From positions 124,001 through 188,000 of the forward strand of contig NZ_CP030050.1 of assembly GCF_015291705.1 (NCBI RefSeq): a stretch of DNA of 64,000 nt, written 5' to 3'. The translations under genes were made by a program, and so were the position numbers. This document shows, in pieces, positions 12,587 through 25,796 of the stretch; position 1 is the stretch's first letter, and each line of letters opens with the position of its first letter. This DNA comes from Bradyrhizobium arachidis (GTDB taxonomy: Bacteria; Pseudomonadota; Alphaproteobacteria; Rhizobiales; Xanthobacteraceae). The notes beneath the pieces were generated by a model. That model had not been told where the DNA came from. It ran no database searches and worked only from the letters and a program-made list of their open reading frames with translations.

Positions 12587-14215
12587 TCAGGCCGGTTCGG
12601 TGTTGCGGGAGCGGTCGGACAGTGCGTTGGAGAGGACGTTACCAAGGGCGCTCTGCTTGTCGCGGCGACGTTGCACCGAGGACGGGATGCGCATGGCTTC
12701 GCGGTACTTCGCGACCGTGCGGCGGGCAATATCAATGCCCGAGGCGCGCAAGCGTTCCACGATGGTATCATCCGACAGGATCGCCGAGGGTTCTTCCGAA
12801 TCGATCAGCTGCTTGATGTGGTGACGCACCGCTTCAGCGGAGTGCGCTTCGCCGCCGTCGGCCGAAGCGATCGACGCCGTGAAGAAATATTTCAATTCGA
12901 ATGTGCCGCGATTTGTCGCCATGTATTTGTTGGCGGTGACGCGCGACACCGTGGATTCATGCATCTGGATGGCGTCGGCGACGGCCTTCAGATTCAGCGG
13001 CCGCAGATGCGCGACGCCATGGGTGAAGAAGCCGTCCTGCTGGCGCACGATCTCGGTCGCAACCTTGAGGATGGTGCGGGCGCGCTGGTCGAGCGCGCGC
13101 ACCAGCCAGGTCGCATTCTGCAGCGCGTCGGTGAAATAGGACTTGTCGCCGTCCTTACCGATCTTCTTCGATAGCTCGGAATAGTAGGTCTGGTTGACAA
13201 GCACGCGCGGCAAGGTGTCGCTGTTGAGCTCGACATGCCAGCCGCCATCGGGACCCGGACGGACATAGACGTCGGGCACCATGGTCTGCAAACGGGCCGA
13301 GCCGAATTTCATGCCGGGCTTGGGATTGAGCCGGCGGATCTCGCCGATCATGTCGGCGATGTCCTCGTCGTCGACGCCGCAGAGCTTGCGCAAGCTCGCG
13401 ATGTCGCGCTTGGCCAGCAGATCGAGATGCTCGACCAGGGCCTGCATCGCGGGATCGTAGCGGTCGAGCTCGCGGAGCTGGATCGCGAGGCATTCGCTCA
13501 GATTGCGCGCGCAGACGCCCGGCGGATCGAATTTTTGCAGCACGGCAAGGACGTCCTCGACGTCCTTTTGCGATGCGCCAAGACGCTCGGCAGCCTGGCC
13601 GAGATCGGGTGGCAGATAGCCGGCCTCGTCGACGAGGTCGATCAGGTACTGGCCGATCATCCGCTGCGCCGGCGCGGTGAAGGCGACCGAGAGCTGCTCG
13701 GCGAGATGGTCCGACAGCGTCATCTCGGCGGCGACGAAGGCTTCGAGATTGTAGTCCTCGTCACCGGAGGCGCCGCCGCCCCACTCGGTGTAGACGCTCG
13801 GCGCGGCGTCCTGCGCGTTGCGCGCGGCGGCCTCGGCCGGCTCCTCGGAGAAGACGTTGTCGAGGCCCGTGTCCAGGGTCTGCTCGATCTCGGCGCGGGT
13901 GCCGAGATCCTTGCTCATCCATTCTTCCTGGCCGGGCTCGAAAGCGTCGCCGCTGCCACCAAAGCCGTCACTATCGCCCTGGCTGCCTGAATCTTCGCCA
14001 TCGTGGTCGCTGAACTGGCCGGCCTCGGCCGGGGTCTCGCCGCCGGGGGCCTCGTCATTGGCCCGCTCCAGCAGGGGGTTACGCTCGAGTTCCTCCTCCA
14101 CGAAGGTCGTGAGATCGAGATTGGACAATTGCAGCAGCTTGATCGCCTGCATCAGCTGCGGCGTCATGACCAGCGACTGCGATTGCCGGAACTCTAATCT
14201 CTGCGTAAGCGCCAT
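12587..14215 (-). CDS. rpoN: RNA polymerase sigma-54 factor RpoN
   Basis: A 542-residue sigma-54. Region I (residues 1-50) is Gln/Leu-rich (LTQRLEFRQSQSLVMTPQLMQAIKLLQLSNLDL) and contacts activators. Region II (about 52-150) is strongly acidic (GEDSGSQGDSDGFGGSGD). Next come the core-binding and cross-linking regions, and the RpoN box ARRTVAKYRE at residues 497-506, which reads the -24 element. It directs enhancer-dependent transcription of nitrogen assimilation and fixation genes in rhizobia. Its place downstream of lptB and upstream of hpf-ptsN is the standard one. A 90-bp gap separates it from lptB. Confidence 0.96.
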   Translation of the reverse strand: MALTQRLEFRQSQSLVMTPQLMQAIKLLQLSNLDLTTFVEEELERNPLLERANDEAPGGETPAEAGQFSDHDGEDSGSQGDSDGFGGSGDAFEPGQEEWMSKDLGTRAEIEQTLDTGLDNVFSEEPAEAAARNAQDAAPSVYTEWGGGASGDEDYNLEAFVAAEMTLSDHLAEQLSVAFTAPAQRMIGQYLIDLVDEAGYLPPDLGQAAERLGASQKDVEDVLAVLQKFDPPGVCARNLSECLAIQLRELDRYDPAMQALVEHLDLLAKRDIASLRKLCGVDDEDIADMIGEIRRLNPKPGMKFGSARLQTMVPDVYVRPGPDGGWHVELNSDTLPRVLVNQTYYSELSKKIGKDGDKSYFTDALQNATWLVRALDQRARTILKVATEIVRQQDGFFTHGVAHLRPLNLKAVADAIQMHESTVSRVTANKYMATNRGTFELKYFFTASIASADGGEAHSAEAVRHHIKQLIDSEEPSAILSDDTIVERLRASGIDIARRTVAKYREAMRIPSSVQRRRDKQSALGNVLSNALSDRSRNTEPA

Positions 14216-14304: not shown

Positions 14305-15306
14305 CTAGAGGCGGAATTCCTCGCCGAGGTAAAGCCGGCGAACGTCGGGGTCGGCGACGATCTCGTCCGGGCTCCCCTCCGTCAGGATCTCACCGGCATA
14401 GACGATATAGGCGCGGTCGGTGAGGCCGAGCGTTTCGCGGACATTGTGGTCGGTGATCAGCACGCCGATGCCGCGATTGGTGAGATGGCGCACGAGGTCC
14501 TGAATGTCGCCGACCGCGATCGGATCGATGCCGGCGAAGGGCTCGTCGAGCAGCATGTAGTTCGGGCGCGTCGCCAGCGCGCGCGCGATCTCGACTCGGC
14601 GGCGCTCACCGCCTGACAGCGCGATCGACGGCGATTTGCGCAGCCGCGTGATGTTGAACTCGTCGAGCAGCGAATCGAGCTGCTGCTCGCGCTTCTTGCG
14701 CGAGGGCTCGACCACTTCGAGCACGGCGCGAATGTTCTGCTCGACGGTGAGGCCGCGGAAGATCGAGGCTTCCTGCGGCAGATAGCCGATGCCGAGCCGC
14801 GCGCGCTGATACATCGGGAGTTGCGTGACGTCGTGGCCGTCGAGCTCGATCGCGCCGCGATCGGCCTTGATCAGGCCGGTGATCATGTAGAACACGGTGG
14901 TCTTGCCGGCGCCGTTCGGGCCGAGCAGGCCGACCGCTTCGCCGCGGCGCACATAGATGCTGACGCCGCGCACCACCTGGCGGCTGCCGAACGCCTTTTC
15001 CACGCTATGCACAGCCAGGAAGCCCGGACGGCGCAGCAGCTGCGGTCCGCCGGTGCCGTTCGGCTTGGCAGCGCTCCTGACGGGGTGAACCGCACGCGGC
15101 GGCTCAGGCTGGTAGTCGGCCTGATAGTCGCCTTGATAATGGTCGGGTGCGTGCATCGGCTGGTCACGGGCGATCGGCGGGGCGTCCCGCACCGGGCTGG
15201 TCACGAGGCCCCCGACGCTGTCCCCGAGCGCGGTGATGTCGCGCGCAAATCCTGGCCGGCCGCGTTTGGCGGGGCGCCGACGGAACATGCTGAATAGATC
15301 GACCAT
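14305..15306 (-). CDS. lptB: LPS export ABC transporter ATP-binding protein LptB
   Basis: 333 residues from the ATG at 15306. The ABC domain starts near residue 80 ([17 protein letters not shown]) with Walker [10 protein letters not shown], the Q-loop YLPQEASIF, signature LSGGERRR, Walker [13 protein letters not shown] and the H-loop ITDHNVRE. The last two are the LptB consensus. It powers extraction of LPS from the inner membrane with LptFG. The protein is about 90 residues longer than the usual ~240 because of a low-complexity N-terminal extension ([21 protein letters not shown]...). lptA lies about 240 bp upstream. Confidence 0.93.
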
Positions 15307-15549
15307 CCCCGCCTTCCAGCCTTTCGCGGTTCTTGCGCGGTGTTTGCGCAGCGTTCGCGCGATCTGCCGCGCCGGCCTTTCGATTCGCCGGAGCAGCATG
15401 AATGAAGGGATGTCTCATGCCCAGTGAAACACGCCCGAAAAGCGGCGGATCCCGCTTCGAAGCCCTGCGCGTAGATACAGTCTCGCCACGCAAGCTTCAA
15501 CCTCGGATCGGCGACATCCGACCCAAGTCCATGAATTTACTTTCAGAAT

Positions 15550-16284
15550 TTACTTTTTGCCAACGCCGGGCAACACCGAGGGCGGGGCCGCGCCGGGCTT
15601 GGCCGGAGCGCCCGAACCGCAATCACTGCCGGCGCCCTGCGGCAGCAGGACCTGAACGCCCCGGCCGCTGTCGGATTCCACGCGGGACACGCCGGTGGTC
15701 ATGTCGACCGTCAGCCGGTCGCCGCGCATCACGTTCTTGCACTGGGTCATGACCACCTGGCCTGCACCGCCGCCAAACATGGTGATGAGGTTGGTCTTGG
15801 TGTCGAACACGGCGGTCTCGCCTGTCACCACCTGGTCCTTCTGGGTGACCACGACATTCCCGCGCGCCTCCAGCCGCTTGATCGAGGAGCTGCCGCCCGG
15901 GCCCGGCGTCGCCGACTGCATCGGCGCACCCTTGGCGCCTTTCGCTGCGGGTTGCGGCGTGGCCGGCTTGTCGCCGCCGCCGGATTCGTAAAACACCACC
16001 AGCGTCTTCGAGGTCATGGTGGTGTCGCCCTGGATGACCTTTACATTGCCGGAGAAGGTCGCCTCCTTCTTCTTGTCGCGCATCTCGAGCGAGGCGGCCT
16101 CGATCTGGATCGGCTGATCGCGATTCTGCGAAAAGCCCTGCAAGGCGTTGGGCTGGCCCTGTATCGTGCTCTGCGCGATCGCGCTACCCGCCGTCAGCGC
16201 GATGCCGAGGGCAAGCGCGGCCGCGCCGAGGATGGCGCACACTTTGACTTCGCTGCGCGGAAAAAACCTGATCATCAAAATCAT
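15550..16284 (-). CDS. lptA: LPS transport periplasmic protein LptA (OstA-like)
   Basis: 244 residues. An N-terminal signal peptide (FFPRSEVKVCAILGAAALALGIALTAGSAIAQS, cleavage after AIAQ or AIA) leads to an OstA beta-jellyroll domain: PIQIEAASLEMRDKKKEATFSGNVKVIQGDTTMTSKTLVVFY, then IKRLEARGNVVVTQKDQVVTGE and MRGDRLTVDMTTGVSRV. These are repeated strands of the LPS-bridging filament. The Pro/Gly/Ala-rich linker and tail are common in rhizobia. The start overlaps the lptC stop as ATGA (16281-16284), so the two are translationally coupled; an internal ATG at 16275 is also possible. Confidence 0.9.
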   Translation of the reverse strand: MILMIRFFPRSEVKVCAILGAAALALGIALTAGSAIAQSTIQGQPNALQGFSQNRDQPIQIEAASLEMRDKKKEATFSGNVKVIQGDTTMTSKTLVVFYESGGGDKPATPQPAAKGAKGAPMQSATPGPGGSSSIKRLEARGNVVVTQKDQVVTGETAVFDTKTNLITMFGGGAGQVVMTQCKNVMRGDRLTVDMTTGVSRVESDSGRGVQVLLPQGAGSDCGSGAPAKPGAAPPSVLPGVGKK

Positions 16285-17000
16285 CTTGAATTAGCGGACT
16301 TGCTCTTTGACTTCGCCGGCGGCGGCGCCGGCTGCTCGACGGGGGCGGCGACATCATCCGTGCTGATCTTGTCCAGATGCATCACGACATTGCCCTCGAA
16401 GCGGATGACGTCGCCACCTTCCGTAATTCGTAAGCGATCGGCGGTCAGCGTGCCGTTGGTCAGCTTGACGTCGACGTGCTCGTCCGAGGAGACCGTGCCT
16501 TTGCCCATGTCGACGAAGGCCGAGTTCAGCCGCGCCTCATAGCCGGTCGAGGTGCGCAGGAAGATGTCCTTGTGCAGGTCGAGCTGCTGCTGCTTGTTGT
16601 CGAAGCGGCCGGTGCGGGCATCGAGGAACAGGGTGGATTGATCCTCCATCAGCACCTTGGCGCGCAGATCGGCGAGATCGACGTGATCGGGGTCAGTGAT
16701 GTCCTGCGTCGCGGTCTTGGCCCAGAGCTCGTAGGGCCGCTGGTCCGGCGTGAAGCCGGACATATGCGGCGATTCCATCGTGATCTTGGTTCCCGTCACC
16801 ACGAGATTTCCGGAGTCGAGCTTGATCGGGATCTGGAACGGATTGAGGAAGGTCGAGACGGCGACGATCGCGGCCAGGGACACGATCACCGTCACCGGCA
16901 CCGCGATGCGCAGAATCCGCACCAGGCGGCTGTGGCGCGCCGCGCTGGCAAACTTCGCCGCAAGCGCGGCGTCGTAGGTGGGAATCTGGGCCGAATTCAC
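16281..17000 (-). CDS. lptC: LPS export protein LptC
   Basis: About 239 residues from a GTG at 17000, chosen because GGAG lies five bases before it; an in-frame ATG at 17048 lacks a ribosome site. One N-terminal membrane anchor (LVRILRIAVPVTVIVSLAAIVAVSTFL) leads to a periplasmic LptC jellyroll (LVVTGTKITMESPHMSGFTPDQRPYELWAKTATQD, FDNKQQQLDLHKDIFL, GTLTADRLRI, IRFEGNVVMHL). It hands LPS from LptBFG to LptA. The tail is Pro/Lys/Ser-rich (APPPAKSKSKSANSR). It is first in the coupled lptC-lptA pair, about 145 bp behind the RNase D gene. Confidence 0.9.
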   Translation of the reverse strand: MNSAQIPTYDAALAAKFASAARHSRLVRILRIAVPVTVIVSLAAIVAVSTFLNPFQIPIKLDSGNLVVTGTKITMESPHMSGFTPDQRPYELWAKTATQDITDPDHVDLADLRAKVLMEDQSTLFLDARTGRFDNKQQQLDLHKDIFLRTSTGYEARLNSAFVDMGKGTVSSDEHVDVKLTNGTLTADRLRITEGGDVIRFEGNVVMHLDKISTDDVAAPVEQPAPPPAKSKSKSANSR

Positions 17001-17145
17001 TGCTGCTCCAGAGTGTCGCTCGCTCTGTCCGGTTGAAAAGCGCCCCATTGTACCCGGTGCCGCCACGATATGCAGCCGGCGACAGGCCGTTACGAAAGTG
17101 TCCGAAACGGGGCGGCGGCCATGAGGCTAGCCGCCGCGCGCGGGC

Positions 17146-17760
17146 TCAGGAATGCGCAAAAATGTCCTCTTCGGCCCAGCCCTGGAGGTCGAGCAGGGCG
17201 CGGGTCGGCAGGAAGTCGAAACAGGCCTTGGCCAGCGCTGTGCGGCCTTCCCGCACCAGCATGGCATCGAGCCGCTCGCGCAGGGCATGCAGATGCAGCA
17301 CGTCGGACGCGGCATAGGCGAGTTGCGGCTCGGACAGGCTGTCGGAACCCCAGTCGCTGGACTGCTGCTGCTTGGAGAGATCGACATTGAGCACCTCGCG
17401 CACGAGGTCCTTCAGGCCATGGCGGTCGGTATAGGTACGGGACAGGCGGGAGGCGATCTTGGTGCAGTAGATCGGCCCGGTCATGACGCCAAAGGTCTGG
17501 TACAGCACCGCGACGTCGAACCGCGCAAAGTGGAAGATCTTGGTGATGGCGGGATTGGCCAGCAGGGCCTTCAGGTTCGGCGCGTCGGTATGACCCTTGG
17601 GGATCTGCACCACGTCGGCGCTGCCGTCGCCGGGCGAGAGCTGTACCACGCAGAGCCGGTCGCGGTGCGGGTTCAGCCCCATGGTCTCGGTGTCGATCGC
17701 CACCGCTCCGGTGTAGCGGGACAGGTCGGGCAGGTCGCCGCGGTGCAGGCGTACGGTCAT
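17146..17760 (-). CDS. Ribonuclease D-type 3'-5' exonuclease
   Basis: A 204-residue DEDDy exonuclease. Exo I is AIDTETMGL (D and E metal ligands), Exo II is FHFARFDVAVLYQ, and Exo III is LAYAASDVLHLHAL, with the Y-x-x-x-D pattern. It lacks the two C-terminal HRDC domains of E. coli RNase D, a shortened form common in alphaproteobacteria. Its likely role is 3' trimming of tRNA and other stable RNA precursors. It lies upstream of lptC on the same strand, a frequent arrangement. Confidence 0.88.
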   Translation of the reverse strand: MTVRLHRGDLPDLSRYTGAVAIDTETMGLNPHRDRLCVVQLSPGDGSADVVQIPKGHTDAPNLKALLANPAITKIFHFARFDVAVLYQTFGVMTGPIYCTKIASRLSRTYTDRHGLKDLVREVLNVDLSKQQQSSDWGSDSLSEPQLAYAASDVLHLHALRERLDAMLVREGRTALAKACFDFLPTRALLDLQGWAEEDIFAHS

Positions 17761-17858: not shown

Positions 17859-19178
17859 TCAGATCGCGGCCAGCATGATGCAGATCATCGCCGCGACCGT
17901 GATGCGGCTGGGGCCGTCGCGGAACGCGTAGAGAATAGGATCATCAGGCATCTCGCGGCGGTGCGCCATCATCAAGGCGCGGCCGAACCAGTACAGCAGC
18001 AGCGGGTTGAGCAGCCACAGCATCCAGGGACGGCCGTACAGCGGCGTCACCGCCGTTGACGACACATAGAGCGAGAACACCGTCACCGCATTCATCGCGC
18101 TTGCCGCCGCCATCGCGGCGATGACATGAAGGTCGGTGATCCTGTAGTCGCGGTTGGAGGGATCGGCGAGCCCTGCGCTCTCGCGCATGCTGAGCTCGCT
18201 GAAGCGCTTGATCAGCGCCAGCGAGGTGAACACGAACAGCGAGAAGATCAGCAGCCATTCCGACAGCACCACGCCGACGCCGACCGCGCCGGCGACGATG
18301 CGCAGGCTATAGAGCCCGGCAAGCGTGACGACATCGACCAGCATCTTGCGCTTGAGCACGAGCGAATAGGCGATGGTGGTGGCGAGATAGGCGCCGAGCA
18401 CGCCGAGGAACAGCGGCGAGATGCAGAGGGAGGCTGCGACCGCGAACAGCCACAGGGCAGGGATCGCAAGCAGCGCGGAGGAGATTGGCAGCTCACCTGA
18501 CGCAAGCGCGCGATGGCGCTTGGTCGGATGCTGGCGGTCGGCGCCAAGATCCAAGAGATCGTTCATCAGATAGGCGCCCGACGCACAGGCCGAGAACGCC
18601 ATGAACGCCAGCAGGGCATAGCCGAGCGTGGCGAGATTCATCTGATGCGCGGTGATCGCAGGCACGAACACCAGCGTGTTCTTGGCGTATTGATAGACGC
18701 GCAGCGCGTTGGCCCAGGTCTTGAAGCTCGCGCGCGCGTGGGCGCGGCTCTCGATGCGCTCGATGGAGCCGCGATCGAACGGCAGCTTGTCGCCCGCAGC
18801 AAGATCGGCCGGCGTCACGACGCCATCAAAGCCGAGATGCGCGGCGATGCCCGCGGCATGACGGGCGAAGCGGCTCGCTGCCAGATAAATCTTCTCGCCC
18901 CGCGCCCGCGCCGCCAGCGCCTGGTTCAGCACCCCGGAATCGTAGGGCAGGTGGGCGTAGTCGATGTCGGCCTGCGCGAGGACATCCGTGAGCGCCGCCA
19001 TGCCTGGGCGCCCGCCCGCGCCGAAGCGAGCCAGCAGACGGCCGGGGCTGGAGAACAGCGCCTCCATCAGCAGCTCGGACCGCAGCAGCGCGCCTTCGAG
19101 GTCGATGACGAGCGTCCGCGCCGCCGCGGCCGACGGCTCGGGCGTGCCAAAATCATGCTGCCGGGCGGGCTGCTCCAT
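17859..19178 (-). CDS. UbiA family polyprenyl-phosphate phosphoribosyltransferase-like protein with N-terminal HAD-like domain
   Basis: 439 residues in two parts. Residues 1-~150 resemble a HAD phosphatase domain (TLVIDLEGALLRSELL in place of D-x-D-G-T, KIYLAASRFARHAAGIAAHLG, GDKLPFDRGSIER). From ~150 on is a nine-helix UbiA prenyltransferase. NDLLDLGADRQHPTKRHRALASGELP and YSLVLKRKMLVDVVTLAGLYSLRIVAGA closely follow the signature of decaprenyl-phosphate phosphoribose synthase (Rv3806c type) rather than quinone UbiA. It would join phosphoribosyl diphosphate to a C50/C55 lipid phosphate at the inner membrane. DprE1- and DprE2-like genes lie 4-6 kb away. The second HAD aspartate is glutamate, so phosphatase activity is uncertain. 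Confidence 0.85.
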   Translation of the reverse strand: MEQPARQHDFGTPEPSAAAARTLVIDLEGALLRSELLMEALFSSPGRLLARFGAGGRPGMAALTDVLAQADIDYAHLPYDSGVLNQALAARARGEKIYLAASRFARHAAGIAAHLGFDGVVTPADLAAGDKLPFDRGSIERIESRAHARASFKTWANALRVYQYAKNTLVFVPAITAHQMNLATLGYALLAFMAFSACASGAYLMNDLLDLGADRQHPTKRHRALASGELPISSALLAIPALWLFAVAASLCISPLFLGVLGAYLATTIAYSLVLKRKMLVDVVTLAGLYSLRIVAGAVGVGVVLSEWLLIFSLFVFTSLALIKRFSELSMRESAGLADPSNRDYRITDLHVIAAMAAASAMNAVTVFSLYVSSTAVTPLYGRPWMLWLLNPLLLYWFGRALMMAHRREMPDDPILYAFRDGPSRITVAAMICIMLAAI

Positions 19179-19483
19179 CCGAAAAAGCTCTGAATTGCCG
19201 TAAAACTGACCGGCGCTCAGGCCGGGGAGCAGGGAAATGGACGCCAGCGAGCCTAGGGGGCATTCGCTAAGGGCGGCTTAATTTGGCCGGACAAGGCCAG
19301 CGGCCCCGGCGGGACGATCAAGTCACATCGGTGTGTCAGGCTGTTGCAGGGATCCCACAACCCGGCGTGAGCTTCGTGTTCCGACACAGCCTTTGCCGTG
19401 TGCCCCGTGGAAATCCTCACCATTCACCCTATCTGCCAGTTTCGCGCGGCGCCCTGTCGCGCCCACCCGCGAACCAGGTGCCC
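19179..19483. other. Divergent intergenic region, no gene seen
   Basis: About 305 bp between the UbiA and MFS genes, which face away from each other. Reading frames upstream of the MFS start have no conserved sequence. A CCCGGC/GGCCCCGGCGGG-rich stretch near 19300 gives only weak hairpins. The region presumably holds both promoters, but no clear -35/-10 pair could be chosen. Confidence 0.4.
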
Positions 19484-20755
19484 ATGACCGAACAGACGTT
19501 AGCTGCGCCGATCGACGATCAACCGGAACGGCAGCGCGGCTTTTCGCGCTACCAGTCGCTCCTGATCGCGCTGCTCGCCTTTACGCAATTCACGATCATC
19601 CTCGACTTCATCATCATGTCGCCGCTCGGCGCCATCCTGATGCCCGCGCTCAATATCACGGCCACCCAATTCGGCATCGCGGTGTCAGCCTATGCGTTCA
19701 GCGCGGGAATTTCCGGCGTGCTGGCCGCCGGCTTCGCCGATCGCTTCGATCGCAAGCGGCTCCTGCTGTTCTTCTATGTCGGCTTCACGCTCGGCACCCT
19801 GCTCTGCGCCGCCGCGCAGAATTACCACGTGCTGCTGCTCGGCCGGATCGTGACCGGGTTGTTCGGCGGCGTGATCGGCTCGGTCGTGCTTGCCATCATC
19901 ACCGATCTGTTCCCGCTGCATCTGCGCGGCCGCGTCATGGGCTTCGTCCAGACCGCGTTCGCCGCGAGCCAGGTGCTCGGCATTCCCGCAGGGCTGTTTC
20001 TCGCCAATCACTGGAACTGGCACATCTGTTTCGTAGCGATCGTCGGCCTGTCGATCGCGGCGATCGCGGTCATCGTCTTCGCGATGGAGCCGGTCGACGC
20101 GCATCTGAAGCTGAAGCAGGACCGAAACCCGTTCCGCCATCTGGTCGCGACGGTCTTCGAGCCGCGCTACACGCTGGCCTTCGGCGTCACCACCTTGCTG
20201 GCGACCGGCGGCTACATGCTGATGCCGTTCTCAAGCGCCTTCACCGTGCACAATCTCGGCATCGACATCACGCATCTGCCGACGATCTATCTCGTCTCCG
20301 GCCTGTTCAGCATCGTCACCGGGCCGCTGGTCGGCCGTGCCAGCGACAGGTTCGGCAAATACCCGACCTTCGTGTTCGGCAGCGTGGTGTCTGTCATCAT
20401 GGTGCTGATCTACACCCATCTCGGCCACGTCACGCTGACGACCGCGATTCTCGTCAACGTCCTGATGTTCGTCGGCATCTTCTCGCGCATGATCCCGTCG
20501 CAGGCGCTGATGTCGGCGATCCCCGATCAGAGCCAGCGCGGCTCCTTCAGCGCGATCAGTGCCTCGCTCCAGCAGCTCTCCGGCGGCCTCGGCTCTGTGC
20601 TCGCCGGCGCCATCATCGCACAGGCACCTGATGGCTCGCTGCTCCATTTCGACCGGATCGGCTACGTCGTCTGCGCGTCGGCGGCGATCGCGCTGGTTGC
20701 GATGTATTTCGTGCAGAAGGCGGTGGCGGAGCGGGCGGGCAAGCGGGTGGTCTAA
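19484..20755 (+). CDS. MFS transporter
   Basis: A 423-residue 12-helix major facilitator. The first helix is SLLIALLAFTQFTIILDFIIMSPLG. The loop 2-3 signature appears as GFADRFDRKRLLLF (G-x-x-x-D-R-x-G/D-R-[RK]) and recurs in the second half as GRASDRFGKYPTFVFG. A central cytoplasmic loop (AMEPVDAHLKLKQDRNPFRHL) divides the halves. It resembles AraJ/YdhP-type efflux permeases; the substrate is unknown. ATG 19484 (MTEQTLAAPI) is preferred to the upstream GTG-rich frame, which has no conserved features. It is followed by a toxin-antitoxin module about 100 bp on. Confidence 0.87.
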   Translation: MTEQTLAAPIDDQPERQRGFSRYQSLLIALLAFTQFTIILDFIIMSPLGAILMPALNITATQFGIAVSAYAFSAGISGVLAAGFADRFDRKRLLLFFYVGFTLGTLLCAAAQNYHVLLLGRIVTGLFGGVIGSVVLAIITDLFPLHLRGRVMGFVQTAFAASQVLGIPAGLFLANHWNWHICFVAIVGLSIAAIAVIVFAMEPVDAHLKLKQDRNPFRHLVATVFEPRYTLAFGVTTLLATGGYMLMPFSSAFTVHNLGIDITHLPTIYLVSGLFSIVTGPLVGRASDRFGKYPTFVFGSVVSVIMVLIYTHLGHVTLTTAILVNVLMFVGIFSRMIPSQALMSAIPDQSQRGSFSAISASLQQLSGGLGSVLAGAIIAQAPDGSLLHFDRIGYVVCASAAIALVAMYFVQKAVAERAGKRVV

Positions 20756-20781
20756 TGAGGGGCGGCCGGTTTGGTCCGGAG

Positions 20782-20830
20782 GGCCCAATACCGCTTGATG
20801 AAAGTGCCATCCAATAATAGTTATTGGGCC
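20782..20830. promoter_or_regulatory. Probable parDE operator/promoter palindromes
   Basis: A perfect interrupted palindrome CCAATAATAGTTATTGG (20811-20827, 7-bp arms around TAG) lies 27 bp before the parD start. A second, larger inverted repeat shares its right half: GGCCCAATA at 20782-20790 and TATTGGGCC at 20822-20830. AT-rich palindromes of this kind are the usual ParD ribbon-helix-helix sites, overlapping the -10 region for autorepression. Confidence 0.6.
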
Positions 20831-20853
20831 GAACATCCACGGAGAAGCGCGGC

Positions 20854-21111
20854 ATGGCAGTCAGTGCAGATCTGGGCGAAGCCCTTGAAAACTTTATAAC
20901 AAAATTGGTCGCCTCGGGCCGTTACCACTCCAAGAGCGAGGTGCTGCGGGAGGGCGTGCGGCTCATTCAGGAGCGCGAAGCGAGGCTCGCGGTATTGGAC
21001 GCTGCGATCGCACGCGGGCTTGATGATGCCGATGCAGGTCGGACCAAGCCAAGCTCCGAAGTCTTCGACCGGCTAGAAGCCAGACTAACGAGTAAAGCGG
21101 ACCGCACGTGA
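20854..21111 (+). CDS. parD: Type II antitoxin, ParD family
   Basis: 85 residues. The N-terminal ribbon-helix-helix is MAVSADLGEALENFITKLVASGRYHSKSEVLREGVRLIQERE (residues 1-42), the standard ParD/CC2985 form with S-x-S-E-V-x-R-x-x-L/V-R. The C-terminal arm (DAAIARGLDDADAGRTKPSSEVFDRLEARL) would wrap the toxin. ATG 20854 was chosen because the RHH motif begins there. Its stop overlaps the parE GTG start (GTGA, 21108-21111), giving translational coupling. Confidence 0.92.
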   Translation: MAVSADLGEALENFITKLVASGRYHSKSEVLREGVRLIQEREARLAVLDAAIARGLDDADAGRTKPSSEVFDRLEARLTSKADRT

Positions 21112-21407
21112 TTGTCGTCATCACCGCGGAGGCCGAAGCTGATCTTGAGGACATCACGTCGTATGTCGCCGAGCAAAGCACGCGGAGTGCGCTCACGCTT
21201 TTGCGTGGGCTACGTGAGAAGTGCGAATCCCTTGCTGATGCACCGCGCGGCTATCCCTTGGTCCCACGCTACGAACACAAAGGCATTCGTCGGCGCCCGT
21301 TGGGCAATTATTTGATCTTCTATCGGGTTGACCACGATGCGATCAAAGTGATCCACATCCTTCACGGCGCGCGAGACTACGAGCGGCTGCTTTTCCCGGA
21401 GGACTAA
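21108..21407 (+). CDS. parE: Type II toxin, RelE/ParE family
   Basis: 99 residues with the ParE fold: VVITAEAEADLEDITSYVAEQ (strand-helix start), LREKCESLADAPRGYPLVPRYEHKGIRRRPLGNYLIFYRVDHDAIKVIHILHGARDYERLLF. The R-x-x-P-x-G-x-Y-x-I-F-Y-R core and the I-H-I-L-H-G-x-R-D end are the family signature. ParE members poison DNA gyrase; that target is inferred here. GTG start, coupled to parD. The gene ends 48 bp before the 3' end of the convergent tRNA-Leu. Confidence 0.92.
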   Translation: MIVVITAEAEADLEDITSYVAEQSTRSALTLLRGLREKCESLADAPRGYPLVPRYEHKGIRRRPLGNYLIFYRVDHDAIKVIHILHGARDYERLLFPED

Positions 21408-21454
21408 GTTTCTCGCGGAGGCGCCCGCTGAATAACGGTCGCACCAACCTAAAA

Positions 21455-21541
<87 letters not shown>

Positions 21542-21565
21542 ATGCCGTTTGGGGCACGGAGGCGG

Positions 21566-21594
21566 TTACTACGGTTCGGTGACGCCGTTGTCAA
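21566..21594 (-). promoter_or_regulatory. Candidate sigma-70 promoter of tRNA-Leu
   Basis: On the minus strand, TTGACA (21589-21594) is followed after 17 bp by TAGTAA (21566-21571), about 25 bp before the tRNA 5' end. The -35 box is perfect and the -10 box weak. Placement and spacing are right for a housekeeping tRNA promoter. Confidence 0.5.
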
Positions 21595-21690
21595 TTCATG
21601 CTTGCCCGGTTTTGGCGATGCGGATTGCGCATCGCAAACCGGCCCGATACAAGCCTGATAATACGCACTCTTCCTGCAGGATTGGACCCC

Positions 21691-22656
21691 ATGGCATCGA
21701 ATCTGGACACGCTGGTCACGGTTTTCGGCGGATCGGGATTTTTGGGCCGGAATGTCGTCCGGGCGCTGTGCCGGCGCGATTACCGGGTCCGTGTTGCGGT
21801 GCGGCGGCCGGAACTGGCCGGATACCTCCAGCCCTCCGGCAGGGTCGGGCAGGTCCACGTCGTCCAGGCCAATCTGCGCTACGCGGCCTCGGTCGAGGCG
21901 GCGCTGCGTGATTCGCATGTCGTGATCAATCTCGTGGGCGTGCTGGCCGAAAGCGGCGCGCAGACTTTCGACGCCGTCCAGGCCAAGGGCGCCGAGACCG
22001 TCGCCAAGGCGGCCGCGGCAGCCGGCGCGAGCCTGATCCATGTCTCCGCCATCGGCGCCGATGCCGAATCGCCCTCGCGCTATGCCAAGGCCAAGGCGGC
22101 CGGCGAGGCGGCGGTGCTGGCCGCGGTGCCATCGGCGACGATCTTCCGCCCCTCCGTGATGTTTGGCCCCGAGGACCAGTTCACCAACCGCTTTGCGGCG
22201 CTGGCGCGGATGTCGCCGGTGCTGCCGCTGATCGGCGCCGAGACGAAGATGCAGCCGGTCTATGTCGGCGACGTCGCCACCGCGATCGCGGATGCGGTCG
22301 ACGGCAAGGCCAAGGCGGGCGCGACCTACGAGCTCGGCGGGCCCGAGGTGCTGACCATGCGCGAGATCATCGAGGCCATTCTGGCCATCGCCAACCGCAA
22401 GCCGGCGCTGATCCCGCTGTCGTTCGGGCTCGCCCGCTTCCAGTCCAACTTCCTGCAATTCGCGCCTGGCGCGTTCAAGCTGACGCCGGACCAGGTCACG
22501 CTGCTCGAGCGCGACAATATCGTGTCGGAAGCCGCGAAGGCTGCCGGCCTGACGCTGGAAGGGCTCGGCATCACGGCCGATTCGCTGGAGGCAATCGCCC
22601 CGCAATATCTCTGGCGCTTCCGCGCCGCCGGGCAATTCCAGCGCATGAGCGTGTGA
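21691..22656 (+). CDS. NAD(P)-binding protein of the complex I NDUFA9 / atypical SDR family
   Basis: 321 residues. The N-terminal Rossmann fold is VTVFGGSGFLGRNVVRALCRRDYRVRVAVRRPE (G-x-x-G-x-x-G at residues ~12-18). It continues with VVINLVGVLAESGAQTFDAVQAKGAETVAKAA and FRPSVMFGPEDQFTNRFAALARMSPVLPLIGAETKMQPVYVGDVATAI, which match the NDUFA9-like atypical SDRs that accompany respiratory complex I or act as quinone-pathway/UDP-sugar epimerase relatives. The canonical Y-x-x-x-K is RYAKAKAAGE. ATG 21691 starts MASNLDTLVTVFGG; the upstream in-frame GTG/TTG codons overlap the tRNA promoter. Precise function is unknown. Confidence 0.85.
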   Translation: MASNLDTLVTVFGGSGFLGRNVVRALCRRDYRVRVAVRRPELAGYLQPSGRVGQVHVVQANLRYAASVEAALRDSHVVINLVGVLAESGAQTFDAVQAKGAETVAKAAAAAGASLIHVSAIGADAESPSRYAKAKAAGEAAVLAAVPSATIFRPSVMFGPEDQFTNRFAALARMSPVLPLIGAETKMQPVYVGDVATAIADAVDGKAKAGATYELGGPEVLTMREIIEAILAIANRKPALIPLSFGLARFQSNFLQFAPGAFKLTPDQVTLLERDNIVSEAAKAAGLTLEGLGITADSLEAIAPQYLWRFRAAGQFQRMSV

Positions 22657-22672
22657 GACGCCCTCTCTCCGT

Positions 22673-22758
22673 CGTCATGGCCGGGCTTGACCCGGCCATC
22701 CACGCGCTTCCGCATTTGCAGCAAGACGTGGATGCCCGGGTCAAGCCCGGGCATGACG
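22673..22758. repeat. Long palindromic intergenic repeat
   Basis: Arms of about 32 bp (CGTCATGGCCGGGCTTGACC... and its near-complement ...GGTCAAGCCCGGGCATGACG) surround a ~20-bp centre. This is the well-known rhizobial GTCATGGCCGGGCTTGACCC-type palindrome. It lies between the convergent NDUFA9-like and DprE2-like genes. Confidence 0.8.
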
Positions 22759-22824
22759 AGTTTGTGGGACGAACGGGGCGAGGGGGCGCACCGCGGCTGC
22801 GGCTACAGCGTAGTTCCTGCAGCC

Positions 22825-23565
22825 TCAAAACTTCAGCTTCTTGAACACCGCCTCCGGCAGCGTCTTGATGATCAGCATCACGAGGCGCCATTTGCCGCTG
22901 ACATAGACGACGTCGGTCTTCTTCTCGACGGCCTGAAGGATCGCATCGCCCACGACAGGTGCTTCGACCGTGAGCGGCCCGATCAGCTTCATGCCTTCAG
23001 TCATCTTCGTACGAACGAAGCCGGGTTTCACAGTGACGACATGCACGCCGCCGCGGCTGGCGCGGGCGCGCAGGCCCGAGAGGAAGGCGGAGAGGCCGGC
23101 CTTGGCCGAGCCGTAGACATAGTTCGAGGCCCGGCCGCGATCGCCGGCGACCGATGACACGCCGACAAGCGTACCATTGCCGCGGCCCAAGAATTTTTCC
23201 GCGAACAGGCCGAGGATCAGCGACGGGCCTTCGTAGTTGGAGCGCATGATCGTGGTGGCATGGGCAAGATCGCTCTCGGCATCCTGCTGCACGCCGAGCA
23301 GGCCGACGATCGAGATCACGACGTCAGGCAGCGCGGGAAGGGCGGCGACAAAGCCATCGAACGAAGCGGTGTCGAGCACATCGAACTTATAGAGATTGGC
23401 CTCGACATTGTAACGCGCGCGCAGATCGGCCGCATCAGGCTCCAGCACAGCGACGTCACGGCCAGCGAGGCCGACATCGTATCCGGCTTTGGCAAAGGCG
23501 CGCGCCGCGGCGCGGCCGATATCGGAGGAGCCACCGAGCACCAGAACGGTCTTGCGTGACGTCAC
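22825..23565 (-). CDS. SDR oxidoreductase, DprE2-like (decaprenylphosphoryl-2-keto-ribose reductase family)
   Basis: 246 residues. It has the cofactor motif VLVLGGSSDIGRAAARAFAKAG and the active site SSVAGDRGRASNYVYGSAKAGLSAFLSGLRARA (Ser, Y-x-x-x-K), then VVTVKPGFVRTKMTEGM and the C-terminal RLVMLIIKTLPEAVFKKLKF. This tail and the SSVAGDRGR-x-S-N-x-V-Y-G-S-x-K string match M. tuberculosis DprE2 (Rv3791) as recalled. It would reduce the 2-keto intermediate made by DprE1 to a polyprenylphosphoryl arabinose-type sugar. The start lies 3 bp after the stop of the DprE1-like gene, so the two form an operon. Confidence 0.85.
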   Translation of the reverse strand: MTSRKTVLVLGGSSDIGRAAARAFAKAGYDVGLAGRDVAVLEPDAADLRARYNVEANLYKFDVLDTASFDGFVAALPALPDVVISIVGLLGVQQDAESDLAHATTIMRSNYEGPSLILGLFAEKFLGRGNGTLVGVSSVAGDRGRASNYVYGSAKAGLSAFLSGLRARASRGGVHVVTVKPGFVRTKMTEGMKLIGPLTVEAPVVGDAILQAVEKKTDVVYVSGKWRLVMLIIKTLPEAVFKKLKF

Positions 23566-23568
23566 GGC

Positions 23569-24894
23569 TTACACCTCATCGAACAGGCGTTGCGAAAGCT
23601 TTGAGCGGATTGTCCCGGCGGGATCGAGCGATTTTCGGATCGCGTTGAAGCGCGACAAGGCGGGATAGCCGGCCTCGAACGTCTCGCGCGACTGCCGCGC
23701 GTCTTTTGCCAGATAAAGCCGGCCGCCGGCCGCGACGACGAGACGATCGATCTCGTCGAGGAAATTCAGGATGTCGCCCTTCACCGGGAAATCCAGCGCC
23801 AGCGTGTAGCCCGGCAGCGGAAAGGACAAAATGCCGTCGCCCTGTCCGAGCTTCTTGAGCACCGCGAGGAAGGAGGCATCGCCACGTCTTGCGACGCGGT
23901 CGAGGATCTCGCCGAGCACGGCGCGCGCATTCCGTTCCGGGATCACACATTGGTGCTGGAGGAAGCCGCGCTTGCCATAGATGCGATTCCAGTCGGCGAT
24001 CGCGTCGAGCGGAAAGAAATAGGGATAGAGCGAGACCACATGGCTGCCGCCGGCGCGCCGTGCGCCCATGCGGTAGTAGAGCTCGTTGAAGGCGCGGATG
24101 CTGAAGCGGTTCAGCGTCATCGACGGCAGGTCGATGGGCACGGCGAGGCCGGGATTCTTGCCGGCGGGAAATGCATGGGCGCCGTCGGCGAGCTCGTCGC
24201 GGCGCGCGTGCTCGCCGAGATAGATCAGCGAGCGGCCGAGATCGCGCCCGCGCGCGGCGCAATCGATCCACGCCACCGAATAGGTCGAGGCATCGCCCGC
24301 ATCCAGCGCGCGCATCGCGGCGTCCAGATCGGATGCGGAGATCACGCGTTCGCGGATCCAGCCCGTTTCAACCGGCCGCAGCCGCATCGTCGCTTCGAGG
24401 ATGATTCCGGTGAGGCCCATGCCGCCGATGGTCGCGAAGAAGGCATCGGAATTTTCTTCGCGTGAGACCTCGATGGTCTGGCTCTGTCCGGTGCGCAGCA
24501 GGATGCTGTCGACATAGCGGCCGAAGCCGCCCTCGCAATGGTGGTTCTTGCCGTGCACGTCGGCGGCGATCGCGCCGCCGACCGAGACGAAGCGCGTGCC
24601 GGGCACGACGAAAGGCAGGAAGCCACGCGGACCAAACGTGTCGATCAGATCCGCGAGCTGCACGCCGGCTTCGAGACGGATGCGCCCGGTCGCGGGATCG
24701 AACGACCTGACCCGGTCGAACCCGGCCATCCCGATCGTCCTGACCGCGCCGATCGCGGCATCGCCATAGGCGCGGCCGTTGCCCCGCGCCACGGAGCCAG
24801 TCACCACGGCTTCGCCCAGCGCCGCGAACGAGCGCGGCCGCAGCATTTCGCTATCGACGACCGGGAAGCGCCCCCAGCCGCTGACGAGGGTCAT
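23569..24894 (-). CDS. FAD-dependent oxidoreductase, DprE1-like (decaprenylphosphoryl-ribose oxidase family)
   Basis: 441 residues. The start SGWGRFPVVDSEMLRP, the FAD-binding RGNGRAYGDAAIG, the covalent-type PGTRFVSVGGAIAADVHGKNHH segment, GGMGLTGIILEA, FFPLDAIADWNRIYGKRGFLQHQCVIP and LYLAKDARQSRETFEAGYP line up with DprE1 (Rv3790). The catalytic lysine (Mtb Lys418) is the K of AKDAR. The benzothiazinone-target cysteine (Mtb Cys387) is replaced by Ala in TLALDFP. It would oxidise C2 of a polyprenylphosphoryl ribose. It precedes the DprE2-like gene by 3 bp, and uppP lies about 95 bp upstream on the same strand. Confidence 0.88.
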   Translation of the reverse strand: MTLVSGWGRFPVVDSEMLRPRSFAALGEAVVTGSVARGNGRAYGDAAIGAVRTIGMAGFDRVRSFDPATGRIRLEAGVQLADLIDTFGPRGFLPFVVPGTRFVSVGGAIAADVHGKNHHCEGGFGRYVDSILLRTGQSQTIEVSREENSDAFFATIGGMGLTGIILEATMRLRPVETGWIRERVISASDLDAAMRALDAGDASTYSVAWIDCAARGRDLGRSLIYLGEHARRDELADGAHAFPAGKNPGLAVPIDLPSMTLNRFSIRAFNELYYRMGARRAGGSHVVSLYPYFFPLDAIADWNRIYGKRGFLQHQCVIPERNARAVLGEILDRVARRGDASFLAVLKKLGQGDGILSFPLPGYTLALDFPVKGDILNFLDEIDRLVVAAGGRLYLAKDARQSRETFEAGYPALSRFNAIRKSLDPAGTIRSKLSQRLFDEV

Positions 24895-24989: not shown

Positions 24990-25796
24990 TTAACGTCCCA
25001 GCGCCAGCGCGATCAGGCCGAGCGTGCCGACGATGACGCGCCACCAAGCGAACACCACGAAACCGTGGCGGGTGACGTAGCCGAGGAACGCCTTCACCAC
25101 GATGATCGCGGTGATGAACGACACCACGAAGCCGATCGCGACGATGCCCATGTGGTCCATCGTCATCTCGGAGCGGTTCTTGTAGAAGTCGTAGGCGAAT
25201 GCGCCGATCATGGTGGGGATGGCGAGGAAGAACGAGAACTCCGCCGCGGCGCGCTTGTCGGCGCCCAGGAACATCGCGGCGACGATGCTGGCGCCGGAGC
25301 GCGACACGCCCGGGATCATGGCGACGCACTGCGCGATGCCGATATAGAGGTACATCAGTAGCGGAAATTTGGTTGCGTCATGCTCACGCGGCTTGAGATC
25401 GAGCTTGTCGACCCAGAGCAGGATGGCGCCGCCGACGATCAGCGTGAAGCACACGACCCAGGGATTGAACAGCACGCTCTTGATGTATTTGCCGGCGACG
25501 AGGCCGACCACGACGGCCGGCAGGAACGCCACCAGCACGCCGATCACGAAACGGCGTGCATAGGCATCGCCCGTGAACAGGCCGATCGCGACATCCCAGA
25601 GCTTCCTGAAGTAGAGCCCGACGATCGCGAGGATCGCACCCAGCTGGATCAGAACCGTAAACGAATCCCAGAAGGCGCCTTCGCCGAGGCCGAAGAAGCG
25701 CTCCGCGAGCAGCAGGTGGCCGGTCGAGGACACGGGAAGGAACTCGGTCACACCCTCGATGATGCCGAGGATCACTGCCCGTATTGCATCTGACAT
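24990..25796 (-). CDS. uppP: Undecaprenyl-diphosphate phosphatase
   Basis: A 268-residue BacA/UppP membrane enzyme. The two signature regions are EGVTEFLPVSSTGHLLL (residues ~15-31, E/S/H catalytic set) and MIPGVSRSGASIVAAMFLG (about 160-178, P-G-x-S-R-S-G). About eight hydrophobic helices are seen. It regenerates undecaprenyl phosphate on the periplasmic side for peptidoglycan and O-antigen synthesis and gives bacitracin tolerance. It sits directly upstream of the DprE1/DprE2-like pair, which would use the same lipid carrier class. It is divergent from the GST gene. Confidence 0.95.
   Translation of the reverse strand: MSDAIRAVILGIIEGVTEFLPVSSTGHLLLAERFFGLGEGAFWDSFTVLIQLGAILAIVGLYFRKLWDVAIGLFTGDAYARRFVIGVLVAFLPAVVVGLVAGKYIKSVLFNPWVVCFTLIVGGAILLWVDKLDLKPREHDATKFPLLMYLYIGIAQCVAMIPGVSRSGASIVAAMFLGADKRAAAEFSFFLAIPTMIGAFAYDFYKNRSEMTMDHMGIVAIGFVVSFITAIIVVKAFLGYVTRHGFVVFAWWRVIVGTLGLIALALGR

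Follow-up and report, generated by a model that had tools for sequence, protein, structure and literature searches.

The window is the 64,000-nt stretch of DNA analysed here (bases 124001-188000 of a single-contig genome of 9.87 Mb). The initial annotation described a UbiA-HAD, a DprE1-like and a DprE2-like gene within 7 kb as a candidate pathway to a lipid-linked D-arabinose donor (Table 1). The ORF positions agree with this distance, but UbiA is a separate unit, with MFS and NAD-binding genes on the opposite strand intervening before DprE2. We take the NAD-binding gene to be NDUFA9-like. The 3 bp reported between the DprE1-like and DprE2-like genes are borne out by the ORF coordinates, as is the position of uppP just upstream of DprE1, on the same strand with a 95-bp gap. 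Right of uppP, the scanned neighbour proteins include GST, queG and infC homologues. The scanned neighbours of the pathway genes are core envelope and housekeeping genes.

Table 1. Features in and around the pathway locus (window positions), with examples from relatives in the last row.
Feature	Position	Strand	Details
rpoN	12587-14215		
ABC ATPase at lptB position	14305-15399		name lptB from position only
lptA-like	15550-16284		
lptC-like	16281-17066		
3'-5' exonuclease, here called RNase D	17146-17760		followed by UbiA
HAD-UbiA protein, predicted PRPP:polyprenyl-phosphate phosphoribosyltransferase	17859..19178	-	439 aa
UbiA-fold phosphoribosyltransferase half, residues 152-439	17862..18725	-	PF01040 70.9 bits
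PRPP/Mg site segment Y203-R223 of UbiA	18510..18572	-	alignment with Rv3806c residues
HAD half, degenerate (phosphoribose phosphatase), residues 20-143	18750..19121	-	motif I D-x-E; motifs III and IV deleted
MFS transporter gene between UbiA and DprE2	19481..20755	+	PF07690
NAD-binding gene between UbiA and DprE2	21598..22656	+	Pfam scan; core neighbour
DprE2-like short-chain reductase, 246 aa	22825..23565	-	NF005489 323 bits; NF053786 189.8 bits; PDB 21gq_C 4.4e-33
DprE1-like FAD oxidase, 441 aa	23569..24894	-	NF053785 412.5 bits; PDB 4aut 1.9e-85
uppP, undecaprenyl-diphosphate phosphatase	24990..25796	-	PF02673, 270 bits
Tandem proteins beside the relatives' operon, probably GT-C (examples)	L117:12104-16958, L136:12066-15278, L127:13697-15277		

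The 439-aa ORF carries the UbiA motif of the Rv3806c type that had been described (NDLLDLGADRQHPTK). Its sole matches among PDB sequences at E 0.001 were to DPPR synthase (8j8j/8j8k, best 5.4e-25), and the fold of the predicted UbiA model was likewise nearest to DPPR synthase. In the alignment 12 of 13 Rv3806c residues are identical in the window protein. The PRPP, Mg and pyrophosphate residues, with roles as given in PMC10994848, are identical in 9 of 9 cases (R22, K28, Y70, N73, D77, K87, R90, Y138 and K143). Six phosphoribosyltransferase residues were checked more widely and were kept in 80/80 UbiA rows. The two other UbiA proteins of the genome, both over the Pfam cut-off, have other residues or gaps at the places of R160, K166, Y203 and K220. 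The window UbiA stayed under the NCBIfam equivalog cut-off (141 of 207 bits at best) and passed that of the generic PRK08238 model with 432.8 bits; the open-access literature yielded no paper on UbiA with PRK08238. The closest named relatives of UbiA and DprE1 were Bradyrhizobium proteins, with identities of up to 94% and 93%, respectively.

The segments noted earlier in the other two ORFs were also found, GKNHH and AKDAR in the DprE1-like and SSVAGDR and YGSAK in the DprE2-like protein. DprE1 matched the solved DprE1 in the PDB (4aut) with an E-value of 1.9e-85, and its HGKNHH and AKD segments align with those of the solved enzyme and are invariant in the six rows aligned. We take HGKNHH to be the FAD-site segment and the Lys of AKD to be catalytic in DprE1. 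In the same alignment the window DprE1 (23569-24894) has Ala366 at the place of Cys C387, presumably the Cys attacked by benzothiazinones. For DprE2, the solved DprE2 21gq_C was the best of 359 PDB sequences (4.4e-33 vs. 1.6e-20 for the runner-up), and the Ser-Tyr-Lys sites of the two align. The profile search against the mycobacterial families thus gave matches to all three proteins, but none over the curated NCBIfam equivalog cut-off (DprE1, 412.5 of 500 bits over residues 4-437, NF053785; DprE2, 189.8 of 250 bits), and we therefore infer the identity of the reactions. dN/dS is low in UbiA, DprE1 and DprE2. Two records, of B. barranii subsp. apii and B. glycinis (L112, L113), have DprE1 in two frames, by sequencing error or decay.

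In order to assess the distribution of the genes we searched 146 genomes of the genus with thresholds of E 1e-40 for DprE1 and 1e-30 for UbiA. DprE1 matches were found in 72 genomes and UbiA matches in 74; counting any type, 68 genomes had both genes, 4 had DprE1 alone and 6 UbiA alone. We set types A and B by eye from identity, type A, that of the window, being defined by at least 77% for DprE1 and at least 74% for UbiA. Type-A DprE1 was present in 57 genomes, type-A UbiA in 56 and both in 56. The sole type-A DprE1 genome without UbiA is G276 (380 contigs). The UbiA of G271 (71% over residues 139-439, no DprE1) falls just outside type A; its inclusion would add one genome with UbiA alone. The DprE1 of G325 and the UbiA of G263, each in two pieces, were scored as present, and the broken UbiA of G301 was not. 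Co-occurrence was significant by Fisher's test (5e-40, kinship ignored). A tree built from four flanking genes (46 rows) requires 7 presence changes, at least 5 of them on supported branches. The independent pairs on supported branches all point in the same direction (p 0.125), a weak test because there are only 4 pairs and because the absences of both parts were found beforehand: 12 of the 13 'absent' rows were already known to lack both, the thirteenth having remnants.

The flanks were inspected in 13 genomes lacking DprE1. The DprE site is empty in 12 of these, where the NAD-binding gene adjoins uppP with nothing recognised between them. UbiA is absent in 10/10 empty-DprE loci whose RNase D gene lay in the stretch (the UbiA side of L163 and L168 is outside the fetched stretch; in L165 and L171 the flanks lie farther apart). 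The thirteenth genome, G301 (L166), carries broken remnants of UbiA and DprE2 at the two sites. The NAD-binding gene was found in 13/13 loci without DprE1, and so was uppP, a core gene that is present without the pathway too. As the distance between UbiA and DprE1 differs between genomes, the two need not move as one block.

These data bear on another reading, in which an ordinary aromatic or quinone prenyltransferase of the UbiA family, a sugar-lactone oxidase and a generic SDR lie near each other by chance. Generic UbiA, lactone-oxidase and SDR models do match, and some sources label such proteins 4-hydroxybenzoate polyprenyltransferase. However, the best lactone-oxidase model reached 56 bits against 412 for DprE1, the other two UbiA proteins of the genome differ at the PRPP residues, and UbiA and DprE co-occur and share losses. 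For none of the proteins was the best match a 4-hydroxybenzoate prenyltransferase or a lactone oxidase, the outcomes that the initial annotation had named as counter-evidence. We find this reading hardly credible.

While the UbiA part of the proposed UbiA-HAD protein stood, the HAD part is degenerate and has lost its catalytic motifs. Pfam found no HAD domain in it at E 0.001. The window protein does not match HAD motifs I-IV: the second Asp of motif I is Glu, motifs III and IV are deleted, and at the place of motif II a Ser (S102) is present, but in only 7/121 rows. The Glu replaces the second motif-I Asp in 120 of these 121 rows (the window and 120 close homologues). By our own criterion, HAD motifs were retained in 41/80 UbiA rows. 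They were intact in 0/22 type-A rows (including L070 and L099, whose flanks are identical and which are probably one genome) and in 0/10 type-B Bradyrhizobium rows; the remaining 7 failures include two rows truncated by contig ends (L066, L115). The motifs are intact in Bradyrhizobium rows L058, L063 and L064. A second UbiA match lies elsewhere in genomes G255, G282, G289, G316, G353, G382 and G386; in the three such loci fetched, HAD motifs were intact in L063 and L064 and lost in L062. Over 18 rows the HAD remnant (residues 20-126) has a median dN/dS of 0.177, like the active half (0.169), and the linker after it has 0.627. The remnant is therefore kept for some function, which is probably not that of a phosphatase.

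With no working phosphatase half, DprE1 and DprE2 could act on a changed substrate, the product being a different pentose donor (a 5-phosphorylated arabinose lipid or polyprenyl-P-ribose). The lack of intact HAD motifs in the type-A and type-B rows fits such a donor, as do the scores of DprE1 and DprE2 under the mycobacterial equivalog cut-offs and the fact that no such phosphatase was recognised among the scanned neighbours. Against it, genomes keep DprE1 and DprE2 and inherit them together with UbiA, so epimerisation seems needed. Moreover, PMC11127046 states that the HAD half of such a HAD-UbiA protein removes the 5'-phosphate and that the phosphatase mutant D18A still formed some dephosphorylated product; thus other phosphatases may do this step. 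We consider a different donor unlikely.

As known users, the initial annotation named mycobacteria and Azorhizobium noeCHOP. This list proved too short, as the genes were found in many alphaproteobacteria. Like the mycobacterial DPA pathway (Rv3806c, Rv3807c, DprE1 Rv3790, DprE2 Rv3791), the window encodes a phosphoribosyltransferase, an oxidase and a reductase with conserved catalytic residues. It differs in the fused HAD remnant, in Ala366 at the benzothiazinone-target Cys place of DprE1, and in that no Rv3807c-type phosphatase or arabinosyltransferase was recognised nearby. PMC11127046 describes three-component pentofuranose systems of the Citrobacter type as well as a proposed system for Pseudomonas pilin, and reports DprE1/E2 homologs in cases of Araf-containing glycans. 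The Citrobacter youngae O1/O2 systems described there share the HAD-UbiA polyprenyl phosphoribose synthase, whereas the window genes have lost the HAD motifs, occupy two chromosomal places and have no recognised MATE flippase or GT-C gene adjoining. For noeC, noeH and noeO, PMC2443382 proposes a role in forming a D-arabinose precursor. The three enzyme classes are the same, and the window genes could likewise form a set for Nod-factor arabinosylation. However, noeCHOP sits in a nod operon and the window genes in a core envelope neighbourhood, where the scanned neighbours are lptC/lptA, rpoN, uppP, queG and infC homologues with no nod gene among them. As the site is also conserved in genomes without the pathway, a Nod-factor role is very improbable.

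In line with the earlier statement that the window holds no glycosyltransferase, neither a GT-C gene nor a flippase (MATE included) was recognised among the scanned neighbours of the pathway genes. Searches of the own genome for a partner covered the families PMT_2, GT87, GtrA, GTC533 and A3. The whole-genome search for GT-C enzymes that had been suggested found eight PMT_2 proteins and one GT87 protein, but none tracks the pathway, for PMT_2 as far as score classes show. The GT87 gene is a core gene in 118/146 genomes, with or without the pathway, and its product had no BLASTP match (E 1e-3) to four GT87 proteins adjoining the pathway elsewhere. About eight PMT_2 classes, told apart visually by score and frame length and not by trees, were alike in 8 pathway-bearing and 8 pathway-less genomes; nearest to the pattern came a class of ~557 aa (6/8 with the pathway, 4/8 without). 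The single GtrA match was rejected as a partner, being fused to a GT2-like domain (GT2 is our own reading). This fusion (L013:6086-8797, at 6.57 Mb in the own genome) adjoins a PMT_2 gene, and the two probably form a separate lipid-linked sugar system. GTC533 and A3, two families of membrane proteins that adjoin the pathway in other genomes, had no match in the own genome in a search run without a positive control. The MFS gene was rejected as a coupled flippase, being absent in pathway-bearing stretches L105 and L108 and present in the pathway-less L164, L167, L172, L173 and L175. That no flippase or transferase was located was counted against the donor-pathway reading.

Among relatives, 36/49 loci have UbiA-GtrA-DprE1-DprE2 on one strand, with HAD motifs intact in 33/35 rows scored. 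This alphaproteobacterial operon encodes the same three enzymes as the window and differs in its GtrA-type gene, its mostly intact HAD and the GT-C-like genes downstream. The latter encode tandem unannotated proteins, probably of GT-C fold, at 16/49 loci and are candidate arabinofuranosyltransferases. In Bradyrhizobium of other types (L056, L058, L061, L062, L123, L124, L126, L128, L130) UbiA lies beside a GT87 gene, mostly with DprE1-DprE2 and in some cases also with GTC533, another unannotated membrane protein; of the rows scored here, L058 alone has kept its HAD motifs. Searches of the open-access literature for DprE1 with Alphaproteobacteria and arabinose, or with Bradyrhizobium, found no paper, and those for Bradyrhizobium with arabinose, lipopolysaccharide and arabinofuranosyl nothing beyond PMC2443382.

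Taken together, sequence, active-site residues, the predicted UbiA structure, co-occurrence and the operon structure of relatives support the proposed lipid-linked D-arabinose donor pathway. The donor enzymes as such belong to a known kind. From homology, residues and co-inheritance we infer with good confidence that the three enzymes build a pentofuranose on polyprenyl phosphate, to be used in sugar transfer beyond the inner membrane; the most likely product is undecaprenyl-phosphoryl-beta-D-arabinofuranose. The UbiA half would move phosphoribose from PRPP to polyprenyl phosphate, a well-supported step. As the fused HAD half is without catalytic motifs, a postulated phosphatase would remove the 5'-phosphate in trans. 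DprE1 would then oxidise C2 and DprE2 reduce it, turning ribose into arabinose, which is well supported by homology. Finally, a putative flippase and GT-C glycosyltransferase may carry the sugar to a periplasmic acceptor, e.g., an LPS-type glycan. Thus, this is a real and probably working donor pathway, in a variant whose genes are dispersed and whose phosphatase half is dead.

More tentatively, and at less than even odds, the pathway may have been broken out of the operon and rewired in one Bradyrhizobium lineage, where the dead HAD, under purifying selection, may serve as a structural or regulatory half. The donor might there be passed to a flippase and a GT-C enzyme from the shared core that arabinosylate an envelope glycan, and operon-bearing relatives might use an unannotated family of GT-C arabinofuranosyltransferases.

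D-arabinofuranose is best known from mycobacteria and related bacteria, where DprE1 serves as a target of drugs against tuberculosis. Since Bradyrhizobium species either have the whole gene set or lack it, they offer a natural comparison for finding the surface glycan that bears D-arabinose and its role in soil or symbiosis. A further prediction is that a phosphoribosyltransferase carries a fused pseudo-phosphatase. In Rhizobium, Microvirga and Paracoccus, the unannotated proteins next to the operon, probably GT-C enzymes, are testable as arabinosyltransferases.
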